A DNA stretch of 64,000 nt from an uncultured Pelagibacteraceae bacterium (GTDB lineage Bacteria; Pseudomonadota; Alphaproteobacteria; Pelagibacterales; Pelagibacteraceae), in assembly GCA_902564385.1 (NCBI GenBank), contig CACFAT010000001.1:124001-188000 (forward strand), written 5' to 3'. Shown one piece after another: positions 19,281-45,967 of the stretch. Position 1 is the stretch's first letter; every line of letters starts with the position of its first letter. The notes under the pieces are model-generated. The model was not told the origin of the DNA, ran no database searches, and saw nothing but the letters and a program-made list of their open reading frames with translations. The translations under genes were made by a program, and so were the position numbers.

Positions 19281-19304
19281 TTAGGTTGTATTTTGAGTCT
19301 GTAA

Positions 19305-19333
19305 GTGAATCAAAAGTGAATCAAAACGTGAAC
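19305..19333. repeat. Tandem 11-base direct repeats between umuD and cupin genes
   Basis: GTGAATCAAAA occurs twice head-to-tail (19305-19315 and 19316-19326), followed after one base by GTGAAC (19328-19333). The period of 11 bases places the half-sites on one face of the helix. The repeats sit between divergent promoters for umuDC and the cupin gene, a typical operator position. No regulator is identified. Confidence 0.6.
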
Positions 19334-19418
19334 ATCCAAAACCATATTTTGTGCTATTGTGGATAACTTAAACCATTAGTAGTCTATGATCTAAATTTAA
19401 TTATAAAAGGAGAAGGGT

Positions 19419-40557: not shown

Positions 40558-41426
40558 ATTTAATTACAAAATTACCAGGACCGCTTTTGATTTTTTTTGG
40601 TGCTTTCAGTTTAAGTTTTGGAGGGTTGATAGTCAAATCTTTCGAAGGCTCCACTCTATGGCAGATACTATTTTGGAGATCAGTTTTTTTTATAATTGTA
40701 GTTCTGATCTTTCTAATTATTAGTTATAAGCAAAATTTTATTTCGGCATTTTATAAATCTGGAATCCCTGGTCTTATTGGAGGCATTATACTTGCCTGTG
40801 GCTTTAGTGGTTATGTTTTTGCGATGTATAATACTACTGTAGCAAATACTAATTTTATAATTCAAACCCAAACATTATTTTTAGCAATCTTTGGATATAT
40901 ATTTTTAAAAGAAAAAATAAACTTAATAACATTAACTTCTATAGTTTTAGCAATTTCAGGAATAATTTTGATGGTTGGAAGCTCATTAACAATTGGACAA
41001 ATGAGTGGAAATATTGCTGCTTTTATTATGCCAATATCATTCGCAACATTAATTTTAATAGTTAGAAAATTTCCAAGTATAGATATGGTTCCATTACAAT
41101 TTATTGCAGGTGTTATTGCTTTGATCATTGGATATTTTATGTCTAAAACGATCTTTATATCTTTAAATGACATTTTTTTGGGATTTTTAGCTGGTTTTTT
41201 CCAACTTGGTTTTGGTTTTATTTTTATTACAATCGGTGCAAGATCTACACCTTCAGCATTAGTTGGAATCATAATGTTATCAGAGGCAGTTTTAGGACCT
41301 TTTTGGGCCTGGATGTTTATAAATGAAAATCCTCCAACCAGCGTTTTAATTGGTGGTTTAATAGTGATATTTGCAGTTTTAATACAATTTCTTTCACTTA
41401 TGAAAAAAAAAAGTGCAATAAATTAG
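40554..41426 (+). CDS. EamA/DMT-family transporter
   Basis: The 290-residue protein has ten hydrophobic helices arranged as two EamA repeats, each ending with the loop-helix pattern typical of the family (LKEKINLITLTSIVLAISGIIL in the first, INENPPTSVLIGGLIVIFAVLIQF in the second). DMT proteins export or import small metabolites, often amino acids. Its overlap with pxpC suggests a link with 5-oxoproline or glutamate, which is inference. The glycine riboswitch follows downstream. Confidence 0.88.
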   Translation: MNLITKLPGPLLIFFGAFSLSFGGLIVKSFEGSTLWQILFWRSVFFIIVVLIFLIISYKQNFISAFYKSGIPGLIGGIILACGFSGYVFAMYNTTVANTNFIIQTQTLFLAIFGYIFLKEKINLITLTSIVLAISGIILMVGSSLTIGQMSGNIAAFIMPISFATLILIVRKFPSIDMVPLQFIAGVIALIIGYFMSKTIFISLNDIFLGFLAGFFQLGFGFIFITIGARSTPSALVGIIMLSEAVLGPFWAWMFINENPPTSVLIGGLIVIFAVLIQFLSLMKKKSAIN

Positions 41427-41463
41427 AGCTATAAATTTATATTAGTTATGTTATAAGGATTTA

Positions 41464-41603
41464 TACGGGAGAGACTACTTTTGTAGCGCCGAAGGAGCAA
41501 CCACCCCGGAAACTCTCAGGCAAATGGACCGTACATATTAACTCTGGAAAGAGAATAATTCTCGCCGAAGGAGCAAATCTCTCAGGCAAAAAGACAGAGG
41601 GGG
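41464..41603 (+). ncRNA. Tandem glycine riboswitch in the gcvT leader
   Basis: Two successive glycine aptamers lie before gcvT. Each carries the conserved GCCGAAGGAGCAA core (41488-41500 and 41563-41575) and a CTCAGGCAAA segment (near 41515-41524 and 41581-41590). A shared linker joins them at about 41533-41540. The second aptamer's P1 stem pairs CTCTG (41542-41546) with CAGAG (41595-41599). Glycine riboswitches turn on glycine cleavage genes. A 12-base sequence in the linker/P1 strand (41534-41545) is perfectly complementary to 41609-41620, which includes the gcvT ATG, suggesting translational control. Confidence 0.95.
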
Positions 41604-41617
41604 CATATAGAGTTAAT

Positions 41618-42724
41618 ATGAATATAAAAAAAACATCTTTAAATAATCTCCACATTAAGTACGGCGCAAAGCTTGTAGAATTTGCCGGATATCAAATGCC
41701 CATCCAATATAAAGATGGAATTATACAAGAGCATAAATACACACGTTCACACTCTGGTATTTTTGATGTTTCTCATATGGGTCAATTATTTATATCGGGT
41801 GGTGATGATCTTACAAATGATCTTGAAAAGATTTTTCCTGCGGATTTGAAAAAATTGAAAACTAATCAAAGTAAGTATTCATTTTTAATGAATAACAAAG
41901 GAGGAATTCAGGACGATCTGATAATTACCAAAACATCTGATGGATTTTTAATTATCTTAAATGCTGCATGCAAGTATAATGATTATGAAGTAATAAAATC
42001 TAAACTTGATAATCAATATAAATTAAATCTTGACGAGTCATTGTCATTAATTGCATTGCAGGGCCCCGAAGCAAAAAATGTTTTAAATAAAGTTATACCT
42101 GGTTGTGACAGTCTAAAATTTATGAACGGAAACAACCATGTCTATAAAAATGAAAAAGTATACATAACTAGATCAGGATATACTGGTGAGGATGGATTTG
42201 AAATTTCTATAAAAAATAGTGATGCTGAAACTTTTGTAGAAAGTTTGATAGAAAATGGATCTAAATTGATTGGTTTAGGAGCAAGAGATACATTAAGAAT
42301 GGAAGCTGGACTCTGCTTGTATGGAAATGATTTAGACAACGATACAAGTCCTATCGAAGCTAATCTAAAATGGGCAATACCTAAGAGCAGAATTGAGACT
42401 GAATTTCTTGGATCAGAAGTTTTAAAAAACCAATTTCAAAGCGGAGTAAAAAAATTGAGAGTTGGCATAAAACCAGACAGCAAAGTAATTGCTAGAGGAA
42501 ATACCAAAATTTACAATGATAAAAATCAAGAAATTGGGAAAGTAACAAGTGGCACATTTGGACCAAGCGTTGAACATCCAATAGCAATGGGATATGTCGA
42601 TAATAGTTATTCAACTGTAAATACAAAAATATTTCTTGAAGTTAGAGGAAAAAAAATTCCCGCAAATATTTGTAACTTACCGTTTTATAAAAAAAATTAC
42701 GTAAAAGGGGAAATTAATGTCTGA
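41618..42724 (+). CDS. gcvT: Aminomethyltransferase, T protein of glycine cleavage
   Basis: The 368-residue T protein transfers the aminomethyl carbon to tetrahydrofolate. Characteristic parts: [55 protein letters not shown] and [20 protein letters not shown] with the catalytic Asp. The ATG directly follows the tandem glycine riboswitch and lies inside a possible sequestering helix. It overlaps gcvH by 8 bases. Confidence 0.97.
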
Positions 42725-43097
42725 AGTTAAATATTCAAAAGAACATGAGTGGATTAAAATAGATGGAGAAGAAGCTACAATTGGAATAACCAAGCATGCA
42801 ACAGAAATGCTTGGGGATATAGTATTTGCTGAACTCCCAGAGAAAGGTTCAAATGTCGATAAAGATGGAACTGCTGGAGTGGTTGAGTCAACGAAAGCTG
42901 CTAGTGATGTTTACACTCCTGTTAGTGGAGAAGTTATAGATACAAATCAAATGATAGTTGATGATCCATCAAAAATAAATGAAGACCCAGAAGAGTCTGC
43001 ATGGTTTTTTAAACTTAAAATAAAAGACAAATCTGAAATGGATAGTCTTATGAGTAAAGATGAATATGAAAAATTTGCAAAGGAGACATCAGCATAA
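42717..43097 (+). CDS. gcvH: Glycine cleavage system H protein
   Basis: The 126-residue lipoyl carrier shuttles the aminomethyl group among P, T and L proteins. The lipoylated Lys60 lies in [33 protein letters not shown] is the conserved N-terminal region, and [14 protein letters not shown] the C-terminal part. The ATG and stop overlap its gcv neighbours (8 and 1 bases). Confidence 0.97.
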
Positions 43098-45967
43098 TGT
43101 TACCAAATTCAGAAAAAGATTTTATAAAAAGACACATTGGACCTTCTAAAGAAGACCAATCAAAAATGTTAAAAGAATTAAATTATCAATCAATAGATGA
43201 TTTAATGAATAACACTGTTCCAGAAAAAATAATGTTTAAAGGTGAGCTTAATATCGGAGAATCTAATTCGGAATATGAGGCGTTAAGAAAATTAAGAGCA
43301 ATTTCAAAAAAAAATCATGTTTACTCAAATTTTATTGGAATGGGTTATTATGGAACTTATACGCCATATGTTATTTTAAGAAATATTTTAGAAAATCCAG
43401 GTTGGTATACATCATATACACCTTATCAGCCTGAAGTAGCTCAAGGAAGACTTGAGATGTTATTAAACTTTCAACAAATGATTGTTGATTTTACTGGAAT
43501 GGATATCGCTAATGCTTCTTTATTGGATGAAGGTACAGCAGCAGCAGAAGCCATGGGTCTTAGTCATAGATTAAATAAAAAAGATAGTAATTTAGTTTTT
43601 GTGTCTGAGGATTGCCATCCTCAAACAATAAATGTAATTCAAACTAGAGCCGAACCAATGGGTTTAAAAGTTTTAGTTGGAAAAGAAGATGAAGTTTTAG
43701 ATCAATTAAAAGAGGATTTAGTTTGTGGAATTTTACAATATCCTGGAACTTTAGGAGATATTAAAGATCCTAGTGAAGCAATTAGCAAAATTCATAAAAA
43801 AAACGGTAAGGCTGTATTAGCTTGTGATTTATTAGCATTAGCAAAATTAAAAACACCAAGAGAACTTGGTGCTGATATAGCTGTTGGGAGCTCTCAGCGA
43901 TTTGGAATACCAATGGGGTATGGAGGTCCACATGCAGCATTTTTTGCAACTAAAGACGAGTATAAAAGATCGATGCCTGGTAGAATTGTTGGTGTGTCGG
44001 TTGATAGACATGGTAACAAGGCATATAGATTATCTTTACAGACTAGAGAGCAACACATCAGAAGAGATAAGGCGACAAGCAATATTTGTACTGCACAAGC
44101 TTTATTAGCAATTGTTTCAGCAGCATATGCTATTTATCATGGCCCAGATGGAATTAAAAATATTTCTGAAAGAGTTTCTCAATTAGCAAAAAGTTTTGCT
44201 GATAAAATAAAACAGTCAGGTTATGAAATTTATTCTGATTATTTTTTTGATACTGTTACAATTATTACCAAAGAAAAGACTGATCAAATTTATAAAAATG
44301 CTCTAAATCAGAAAGTTAATATACGAAAAGTAAATTCTGAAATGCTTGCTGTCTCTTTCGATGAAAGAAAAAACGTTTATAGAGTAAATCAATTATTAAA
44401 AATTTTTAATGCTGCAGAATCAATAAAAAAAGAGGATCCTTCAGTTAAATTACCTAATTTACCAAAAAATTTATTAAGAACTTCAAAATATTTAGAGCAT
44501 CCAATTTTTAACTTATATCATTCAGAAACTGAAATGCTTAGATATCTTAAAAAGCTAGAGGATAAGGATATAGCATTGAATAGAACTATGATAGCACTTG
44601 GTTCGTGCACAATGAAGTTAAATGCTGCCGCTGAAATGATCCCGATTTCTTGGAAAGAATTTGCAGAACCTCATCCTTTTGTTCCAGTTGAACAAATGGA
44701 AGGTTTTAGAGATTTGTTTACTGATTTAAAAAATTGGTTAAGATCTATAACAGGTTTTTCCGGTGTTTCTCTACAACCTAATGCAGGCGCTCAAGGAGAA
44801 TATGCAGGTCTAATGGTTATAAGAAAGTACCACTTAAATAGAGATGATGCTCATCGTAATATATGTTTAATCCCAAGTTCGGCACATGGTACAAATCCAG
44901 CAAGCGCACAAATGGTTGGAATGAAAGTCGTTGTTGTTAATTGTGATAAAGAGGGAAATGTAGATTTCGATGATTTAAAGAAAAAAGTAGAGCAACATTC
45001 AGAAAATCTCGCAGCTTTAATGGTAACTTACCCATCTACCCATGGAGTATTTGAGGAAAAAATAACTGATATTTGTGAGTTAGTTCATAAACATGGTGGA
45101 CAGGTCTATATGGATGGAGCAAATTTAAATGCCCTTGTTGGAGTTGCAAAGCCTGGAAATTTTGGTCCAGATGTTTGTCATATTAATCTGCATAAAACAT
45201 TTTGTATTCCTCACGGTGGTGGCGGACCTGGAATGGGACCTATAGCTTGTAAAAAACATTTACAAGTTTATCTGCCTAATCATCCAGTAATAAAAGATTG
45301 CGGACCAACAAGTGGAATTGGAGCAGTATCAGCAGCTCCTTGGGGTAGTTCAAGTATTCTATCAATCTCTTGGATGTATATTAAAATGATGGGATCAGAA
45401 GGATTAAAGCTTGCTACTCAAGTTGCAATTTTAAACGCAAATTATATTGCTCATAGACTTAAAGATCACTTTCCTATTTTGTACAAAGGTGCAAATGGCA
45501 ATGTTGCACACGAGTGCATAATTGATATTAGAAATATTAAATCTGAAACAGGGGTAACAGAAGAAGATATTGCTAAAAGAATGATAGATTTTGGATTTCA
45601 CGCACCAACTATGTCATGGCCTGTAGCTGGCACTATGATGATAGAGCCAACTGAAAGTGAAGGTTTATCAGAAATAGACAGATTTTGTGACACTTTAATT
45701 AAGATTAAACAAGAAATTGAAAAAATTAAATCAGGTGAATTTGATAAAATTGATAATCCAATTAAAAACGCTCCTCACACTGATACTGAATTATCATCAG
45801 ATGTATGGGAACATAAATATTCAAGACAAGATGCAGCATATCCTGCAAGTTTTCTAAAACAAAATAAATTTTGGCCTCCAGTTGCCCGGGTAGACAATGT
45901 TTATGGAGATAAAAATATATTCTGCACATGCCCAAGCATGGATGAGTTTAAAGAAGACGCAGCATAG
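43097..45967 (+). CDS. gcvP: Glycine dehydrogenase (decarboxylating), P protein, fused P1-P2 form
   Basis: The 956-residue homodimer-type P protein decarboxylates glycine with PLP. The N-terminal half has FIKRHIGPSKEDQ, GMGYYGTYTP and YTPYQPEVAQGRLE. The C-terminal half has LGSCTMKLNAAAEMIP, FMQ-like PNAGAQGEYAGL, MDGANLNALVG and the PLP lysine in HINLHKTFCIPHGGGGPGMGP. It is the last gene of the riboswitch-controlled operon; the L protein is not in this window. Downstream, an unrelated FAD gene starts 5 bases later. Confidence 0.97.
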   Translation: MLPNSEKDFIKRHIGPSKEDQSKMLKELNYQSIDDLMNNTVPEKIMFKGELNIGESNSEYEALRKLRAISKKNHVYSNFIGMGYYGTYTPYVILRNILENPGWYTSYTPYQPEVAQGRLEMLLNFQQMIVDFTGMDIANASLLDEGTAAAEAMGLSHRLNKKDSNLVFVSEDCHPQTINVIQTRAEPMGLKVLVGKEDEVLDQLKEDLVCGILQYPGTLGDIKDPSEAISKIHKKNGKAVLACDLLALAKLKTPRELGADIAVGSSQRFGIPMGYGGPHAAFFATKDEYKRSMPGRIVGVSVDRHGNKAYRLSLQTREQHIRRDKATSNICTAQALLAIVSAAYAIYHGPDGIKNISERVSQLAKSFADKIKQSGYEIYSDYFFDTVTIITKEKTDQIYKNALNQKVNIRKVNSEMLAVSFDERKNVYRVNQLLKIFNAAESIKKEDPSVKLPNLPKNLLRTSKYLEHPIFNLYHSETEMLRYLKKLEDKDIALNRTMIALGSCTMKLNAAAEMIPISWKEFAEPHPFVPVEQMEGFRDLFTDLKNWLRSITGFSGVSLQPNAGAQGEYAGLMVIRKYHLNRDDAHRNICLIPSSAHGTNPASAQMVGMKVVVVNCDKEGNVDFDDLKKKVEQHSENLAALMVTYPSTHGVFEEKITDICELVHKHGGQVYMDGANLNALVGVAKPGNFGPDVCHINLHKTFCIPHGGGGPGMGPIACKKHLQVYLPNHPVIKDCGPTSGIGAVSAAPWGSSSILSISWMYIKMMGSEGLKLATQVAILNANYIAHRLKDHFPILYKGANGNVAHECIIDIRNIKSETGVTEEDIAKRMIDFGFHAPTMSWPVAGTMMIEPTESEGLSEIDRFCDTLIKIKQEIEKIKSGEFDKIDNPIKNAPHTDTELSSDVWEHKYSRQDAAYPASFLKQNKFWPPVARVDNVYGDKNIFCTCPSMDEFKEDAA

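Follow-up and report, generated by a model that had tools for sequence, protein, structure and literature searches.

Ligand binding is established as stabilising the P1 helix of the glycine riboswitch class. For SAR11, the switch is reportedly tied to glycine-serine auxotrophy in the title of a 2009 paper by Tripp et al. Glycine riboswitches of this group precede gcvT and glcB, and their presence, gene context and tandem aptamers are described in the portions of PMC2704228 and PMC2211319 available to us, in line with the statement of the original prediction made for this DNA that a tandem gcvT glycine riboswitch is known in SAR11. A translational tandem glycine ON riboswitch is also described for Neisseria gonorrhoeae gcvT, in the accessible text of PMC13104608. 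The same text credits to Torgerson et al. 2020 a C-tract/G-tract pseudoknot present in 66% of aminomethyltransferase riboswitches, and describes it as frequent among ON versions and lacking from OFF ones; the kink-turn, in turn, is given as more conserved in OFF versions.

The locus considered here has the same element and the same genes as the SAR11 switches of PMC2704228 and PMC2211319, the difference being an expression platform that the available parts of those two papers leave undescribed. Nor did we find a statement of it in the portions to hand of PMC5069720, PMC6944388, PMC12060979, PMC13104608, PMC12452182 and PMC13198564, or in the reference lists of PMC3160333 and PMC10030771; a survey that does not establish its absence from print.

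The gcvT leader and its linker/start complementarity

The window, i.e. the whole stretch of 64,000 nucleotides that was analysed, belongs to a SAR11 genome with Pelagibacteraceae as its closest named relatives, and carries the riboswitch between an ORF ending at 41426 (for which no NCBIfam family was found) and gcvT (Table 1). Aptamer 1 alone exceeds the cut-off of RF00504, with 69 bits against the 32 required; the tandem model RF03166 spans both aptamers (41452-41601; 80.6 bits, E 1.9e-17), at a score below its own cut-off of 110. A second homologous aptamer directly downstream of the first makes the switch a tandem one and, as the matches end at or before 41601, the platform lies outside both Rfam models. 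Read as a -10 element, TATAAG would have the RNA begin at about 41463-41465, with the base that opens aptamer 1 P1, in agreement with the SAR11 glycine-riboswitch RNAs in the accessible part of PMC5069720, whose 5' ends were located at P1 or no more than 15 nt before it and whose reads continue into gcvT; a consensus scan gave no promoter. Elsewhere in the window, a SAR11_0636 sRNA (RF01827) is matched with 99 bits at 19284-19374 on the + strand.

Table 1. Features of the gcvT riboswitch locus (window coordinates)
Feature	Position	Strand	Basis or remark
Candidate -10 element TATAAG	41452..41457	+	Reading of sequence by eye
Glycine aptamer 1	41464..41533	+	RF00504, 69 bits; RF03166
Aptamer 1 P1	41464-41468 / 41529-41533	+	Paired in MFE of 41463-41640, 37 C
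Aptamer 1 P3b loop ACCCC, C-tract arm of known P5-type pseudoknot	41503..41507	+	
CATATTAACTCT as putative anti-start strand (linker between the aptamers, running 4 nt into aptamer 2 P1)	41534..41545	+	
Glycine aptamer 2	41542..41599	+	RF03166; under RF00504 cut-off by itself
Aptamer 2 P1	41542-41546 (CTCTG) / 41595-41599 (CAGAG)	+	CUCU common with anti-start strand
G-tract 3' of aptamer 2, second pseudoknot arm (with 41504-41507)	41599..41603	+	Feature named in PMC13104608 (available part)
Putatively sequestered initiation region AGAGTTAATATG	41609..41620	+	Complementarity and covariation
Weak Shine-Dalgarno-like GAG inside initiation region	41610-41612	+	Reading by eye
gcvT start codon ATG	41618-41620	+	
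gcvT, aminomethyltransferase, glycine cleavage system	41618..42724	+	ORF; NCBIfam
gcvH	42717..43097	+	8-base overlap with gcvT; NCBIfam
gcvP	43097..45967	+	1-base overlap with gcvH; NCBIfam

The sequence bears out two elements of the original prediction: CATATTAACTCT is the exact reverse complement of AGAGTTAATATG, which ends in the gcvT ATG, and the two strands assigned to aptamer 2 P1 are both in place. This linker/start 12-mer is the longest perfect helix in 41456-41630; 12 bp was reached in none of 300 dinucleotide shuffles of the 175-base leader, where the maximum was 9. Among 66 ORFs in the window (ATG-started, at least 100 aa), gcvT is the only one whose start region finds a 12-nt complement in the preceding 160 nt; the next-best value is 9, and 54 of the 66 have 4-6. 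The complementarity of linker and start, from here on the ‘clamp’, is thus confirmed as more than chance.

Covariation and distribution of the clamp

We parsed 137 SAR11 gcvT leaders, which represent eight genus-level groups and contain 77 distinct linker/start pairs: the window leader (L001), the closest 80 of 228 GcvT relatives (L002-L081), the 30 top-scoring RF00504 matches among 397 genomes, with 26 of these matches preceding gcvT (L082-L111), and 30 genomes hand-picked for diversity among the 277 with an RF00504 match (L112-L141), some of which repeat those of the preceding set. Contig ends clip L033 and L018, with the sequence before or in aptamer 1 partly or wholly gone. As the leaders are related, shuffle tests are inflated, and most weight therefore rests on controls with slid or swapped partners and on the tree.

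Nearly all of the 77 distinct leaders keep the helix whilst its sequence varies: Watson-Crick-only runs of at least 9 occur in 68, the remaining 9 having runs of 5-8, and a Watson-Crick-only run of 9 was found in 6 of 1540 shuffled start regions. The window-type pair is CATATTAACTCT with AGAGTTAATATG; covarying pairs include CCATAATAACTCT with AGAGTTATTATGG (L105), AAATATTAACTCT with AGAGTTAATATTT (L100), TTGTAATAACTCT with AGGGTTATTACAA (L082), ATTATATAACTCT with GGAGTTATATAAT (L136) and ATTAAAACTCT with AGAGTTTTAAT (L134). The spacer that separates aptamer 2 from the helix differs among leaders in both length and sequence, and the strands still match.

Alignment A1 was built with MAFFT, blind to structure, from 38 leaders hand-picked from the 77 to span linker types; it takes in the weak cases L121, L132 and L141, leaves out L123, and has L136 off by one base, which counts against the helix there. 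In A1, 92.8% of 456 cells are paired; sliding the partner by 1-3 lowers this to 38.8-45.1%. The covariation score is 0.274, against 0.036-0.082 for the slides and 0.115 for shuffles. Two-sided changes that keep pairing fall in 6 of the 12 pairs and in 34 cells. Slides give 3-15 such cells and none of 500 shuffles reached 34; 6 pairs with two-sided changes were also reached, with fewer cells, by 23 of the 500 shuffles and by the +3 slide. The pairs in columns 9, 10 and 13 are nearly invariant and so test nothing, and with the CUCUGG side as a whole nearly invariant the covariation bears on the outer 6 pairs. RNAalifold, on its own, selects 10 of the 12 helix pairs.

Over the tree of the 77 GcvT proteins, 90.6% of positions in 13 columns are paired versus 35-45% when slid, and parsimony counts two-sided changes about 11 times among the 12 pairs; here the register of each row was set to maximise pairing, which favours the helix, as was not the case in A1. 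The mean linker/start duplex energy is -14.0 kcal/mol for cognate and -11.2 kcal/mol for swapped partners (22 linker types, permutation p 5e-5), the cognate start region being the best partner for just 6 of the 22 types, and many linkers pairing equally well with the start region of another leader. L141 is the sole clear break among the 77 (duplex -4.3 kcal/mol), and its sister L134 retains 11 of the 12 pairs; the helix of L132 is weak (-8.4 kcal/mol), and L121 and L123 have lost the two pairs nearest P1. A lack of covariation in related leaders had been named in advance as a result that would count against the idea; instead, covariation is present, both in 6 of the 12 pairs and on the tree. 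The predicted 12-bp helix, as judged from these alignments, covaries across SAR11.

The helix takes in all three bases of the start codon in 58 of the 77 distinct leaders, and one or two of them in a further 10. It takes in none in 9, drawn from four groups (L100; L082, L087, L091, L099; L136, L137; L138, L139), in which the ATG begins 0-4 nt past the helix and the linker still matches its target. That the start codon is hidden by the helix, as originally proposed, consequently holds for most leaders but not as the conserved feature: since in those 9 the helix stops just short of the AUG, the conserved target is the predicted initiation region, made up of a weak Shine-Dalgarno-like GAG, a spacer and usually the AUG. 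The anti-Shine-Dalgarno pattern of 16S rRNA was not found in the window's own genome, which is incomplete. In L113, one of the 58, the paired ATG is directly followed by TAA, so that the working start must be elsewhere, perhaps 6 bases downstream.

RF00504 is matched in 277 of 397 Pelagibacterales genomes, and gcvT is present in all 30 chosen genomes that have the match. In the 20 listed genomes of the 120 without RF00504, all of the window's genus, no gcvT match was found at E 1e-60, in a search with no positive control of its own, although the same query matched the 30 switch-bearing genomes. These 20 SAR11 genomes, G028 and G044 among them, are 89-98% complete. The glycine riboswitch and gcvT seem to have been lost together.

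No sign of the platform was seen in other Alphaproteobacteria: in 29 of their gcvT leaders (28 valid, as L166 was mis-parsed and the wrong stretch taken as linker) linker/start runs are of 3-8, as in shuffles, with none above 8 in the 28. In L145, from an alphaproteobacterium with a small AT-rich genome, the linker pairs over the gcvT ATG with 8 bp, 7 of them Watson-Crick; this is at shuffle level, and L145 is possibly a parallel case. A further ten stretches from outside SAR11 (L172-L181), most of them belonging to small genomes, were inspected by eye and stand outside all counts.

A recognisable linker was found at 26 of 32 glcB loci. The window's genus supplies 20 rows from 18 genomes, two of which are present twice. 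In 19 of these rows, or 17 of the genomes, the ATG is covered by a duplex of 9-11 pairs or slightly more, at -9.4 to -12.5 kcal/mol; L201, without it, is the single exception. These rows (L094, L098, L183-L184, L186-L200) mostly pair (G)CATAACACT with AGTGCTATG(C); the duplex of every row contains a single internal mismatch, whose position is constant but whose base varies. In the other genus the clamp is absent from all 6 rows (-3.2 to -7.8 kcal/mol). The platform is thus partially shared by glcB leaders. L185, the glcB leader of G024, appears to hold one fused aptamer, its 5' half like aptamer 1 and its 3' half like aptamer 2. The window's own glcB (L202) shows no glycine aptamer ahead of it, unlike in most sampled relatives of the genus, in line with the single RF00504 match in that genome.

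Competition with aptamer 2 P1 and the type of switch

P1 and clamp have 4 of the 12 clamp pairs in common (CUCU), and the mutual exclusion originally claimed for the two helices is accordingly right for those 4 pairs and does not extend to the other 8. Energies were computed with ViennaRNA on 41463-41640, a calculation that excludes ligand binding, aptamer docking and the pseudoknot. At 37 C the 12-bp clamp forms in the best fold alongside aptamer 1 and the inner aptamer 2 helices, and the ensemble energies are -43.8 kcal/mol for the clamp, -37.3 for P1 with the clamp barred and -37.6 for P1 plus the 8-bp remainder of the clamp; at 15 C the values are -68.1, -61.7 and -60.4 kcal/mol. Folding with and without a P1 constraint, as had been suggested, hence puts the clamp lowest, 6.5 kcal/mol under P1, but leaves P1 plus the remainder about as stable as P1 alone. 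Across the 77 leaders, the mean gap from the clamp up to P1 is 6.7 (sd 3.1) kcal/mol, the clamp is dominant in 72, and P1 plus remainder averages 1.4 kcal/mol above P1 alone; in L082 and L105 it lies 5-6 kcal/mol below. The P1 strands are conserved in the 38 chosen leaders, with the outer pair lost in 26 and no covariation within aptamer 2 P1. A local hairpin of CATAT with ATATG (41604-41608 with 41616-41620) could, by modelling, keep the AUG covered in the ON fold as well; CATAT is found in 11 of the 137 leaders, the window among them.

The gap of 6-7 kcal/mol could plausibly be paid by ligand, docking and pseudoknot together. The C-tract and G-tract are complementary in each of the 77 distinct leaders, whose 54 distinct loop/tract pairs all form a duplex of 3 bp or more; cognate pairs are better than swapped ones (20 loop types, p 0.001), and the pairing covaries in SAR11 (e.g. 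UACCCA with UGGGUA, UGCUCA with UGAGCA). Novelty for this pseudoknot was dropped, as it is described by Torgerson et al. 2020, cited in the accessible text of PMC13104608: the arms of the P5 pseudoknot are the same P3b C-tract and G-tract in SAR11, and no difference was seen on that account.

A P0 helix with kink-turn is a frequent, though not universal, mark of tandem glycine riboswitches. Between leader and linker the longest Watson-Crick run is 3-7 nt (4-5 in 59 of the 77 leaders); with no run above 7, and with RNA 5' ends near P1 in the part of PMC5069720 available, P0 and kink-turn are probably missing and the linker free. An intrinsic terminator was not found on the + strand in 41350-41750, so the switch does not class as the terminator type; a helix able to cover the initiation region, as expected of a translational riboswitch, is present and covaries. 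The translational ON direction originally proposed fits the class hallmarks, as far as the available extract of PMC13104608 gives them, and the catabolic operon. Complete release of the AUG is something we infer, because P1 has only 4 of the 12 pairs in common with the clamp and P1 with the 8 bp is about equal to P1 alone; opening of this remainder is the weakest point of the mechanism.

Mechanism, alternatives and known systems

The helix can form, is conserved, covaries, and has CUCU in common with P1. On this basis the gcvT leader is, very probably, a tandem glycine ON riboswitch with a linker clamp over the gcvT initiation region that is opened via P1. Such a switch would control translation of gcvT, and probably that of gcvH and gcvP through their overlapping frames. 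With no glycine, 41534-41545 would pair with 41609-41620, covering GAG, spacer and AUG, and aptamer 1 would still be able to fold. Once glycine is bound, aptamer docking and the C-tract/G-tract pseudoknot would keep aptamer 2 P1 closed; P1 would capture CUCU(G), leaving an AU-rich clamp remainder weak enough for ribosome loading. Glycine would then shift the balance and free the AUG, changing translation rather than RNA decay.

Were the complementarity a by-product, with the linker kept for aptamer folding, the start region for ribosome binding and their match accidental or inherited, one would not look for 34 two-sided, pairing-preserving cells in 6 of the 12 pairs, for about 11 such changes on the GcvT tree, for swapped pairs that are worse on average, or for other alphaproteobacterial leaders examined that have the same aptamers and no helix. 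The near-invariance of the CUCUGG-side pairs, the kinship of SAR11 leaders and the many linkers that pair as well with other start regions do fit such a reading, which we nevertheless hold to be very improbable; accident or inheritance as the source of the match is rejected on the swapped-partner, slid-partner and tree counts. Less remote, and still improbable, is a real helix that acts mainly as a static or graded attenuator, gcvT translation being low at all glycine levels: P1 formation would alter little if the 8-bp remainder stays closed, and the near-equal ensemble energies of P1 with and without it in the window, as well as the retention in most leaders of pairs outside the P1 overlap, agree with this. 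Against that stand the joint conservation of pseudoknot, common CUCU and helix, the average over the 77 leaders, where P1 alone is the lower by 1.4 kcal/mol, and the expectation that 8 AU-rich pairs over a 13-nt bulge should melt easily under ribosomes.

Decay of the mRNA and Rho-dependent termination are common consequences of translational riboswitches, and an effect by way of either after blocked translation, and not by translation alone, is the most probable of the alternatives, if unlikely. Red Sea riboswitch transcripts that mainly extend into gcvT (in the accessible part of PMC5069720) are in keeping with it, whereas the missing intrinsic terminator on the + strand speaks against it. 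An OFF switch, with the clamp favoured by glycine binding, is the least probable of all. The P1 that ligand stabilises has CUCU in common with the clamp, and the downstream genes break glycine down. OFF versions are known for sodium-alanine symporters, according to the available text of PMC13104608, but the same text makes the presence of the pseudoknot and the absence of a P0-like helix marks of ON versions.

Returning to the clamp opened via P1, its history may be read as follows, and we think this rather likely: SAR11 dropped P0, and the linker became an anti-start strand that tracked moved starts, at gcvT in all eight genera where the riboswitch was found and, in a shorter form with a mismatch, at glcB in the window's genus. 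If true, a ligand-gated start-codon clamp covarying across SAR11 would be a distinct expression platform. The model names the 12 bases that would switch the glycine cleavage operon on and off, and offers a view of expression-platform evolution in which blocking strand and target change together while the start codon moves.

The likely new part of the mechanism, going by sequence comparison, is the use of the inter-aptamer linker as the anti-start strand of a translational ON tandem switch, as is best seen beside N. gonorrhoeae, to the extent that the latter is covered by the accessible text of PMC13104608. Both have a tandem before gcvT that is ON, with kink-turn and P0 apparently absent and the pseudoknot possible, and in N. 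gonorrhoeae too, without glycine, the stretch immediately before the start codon is blocked by bases of aptamer 2. There, however, the blocker consists of P3a, P3 and P1 of aptamer 2, whereas in SAR11 it would be the linker plus the 5' P1 strand; the N. gonorrhoeae platform pairs just upstream of the start codon, whereas the SAR11 helix usually includes the AUG; and the sequence of the former is poorly conserved within its genus, whilst the SAR11 helix covaries across SAR11.
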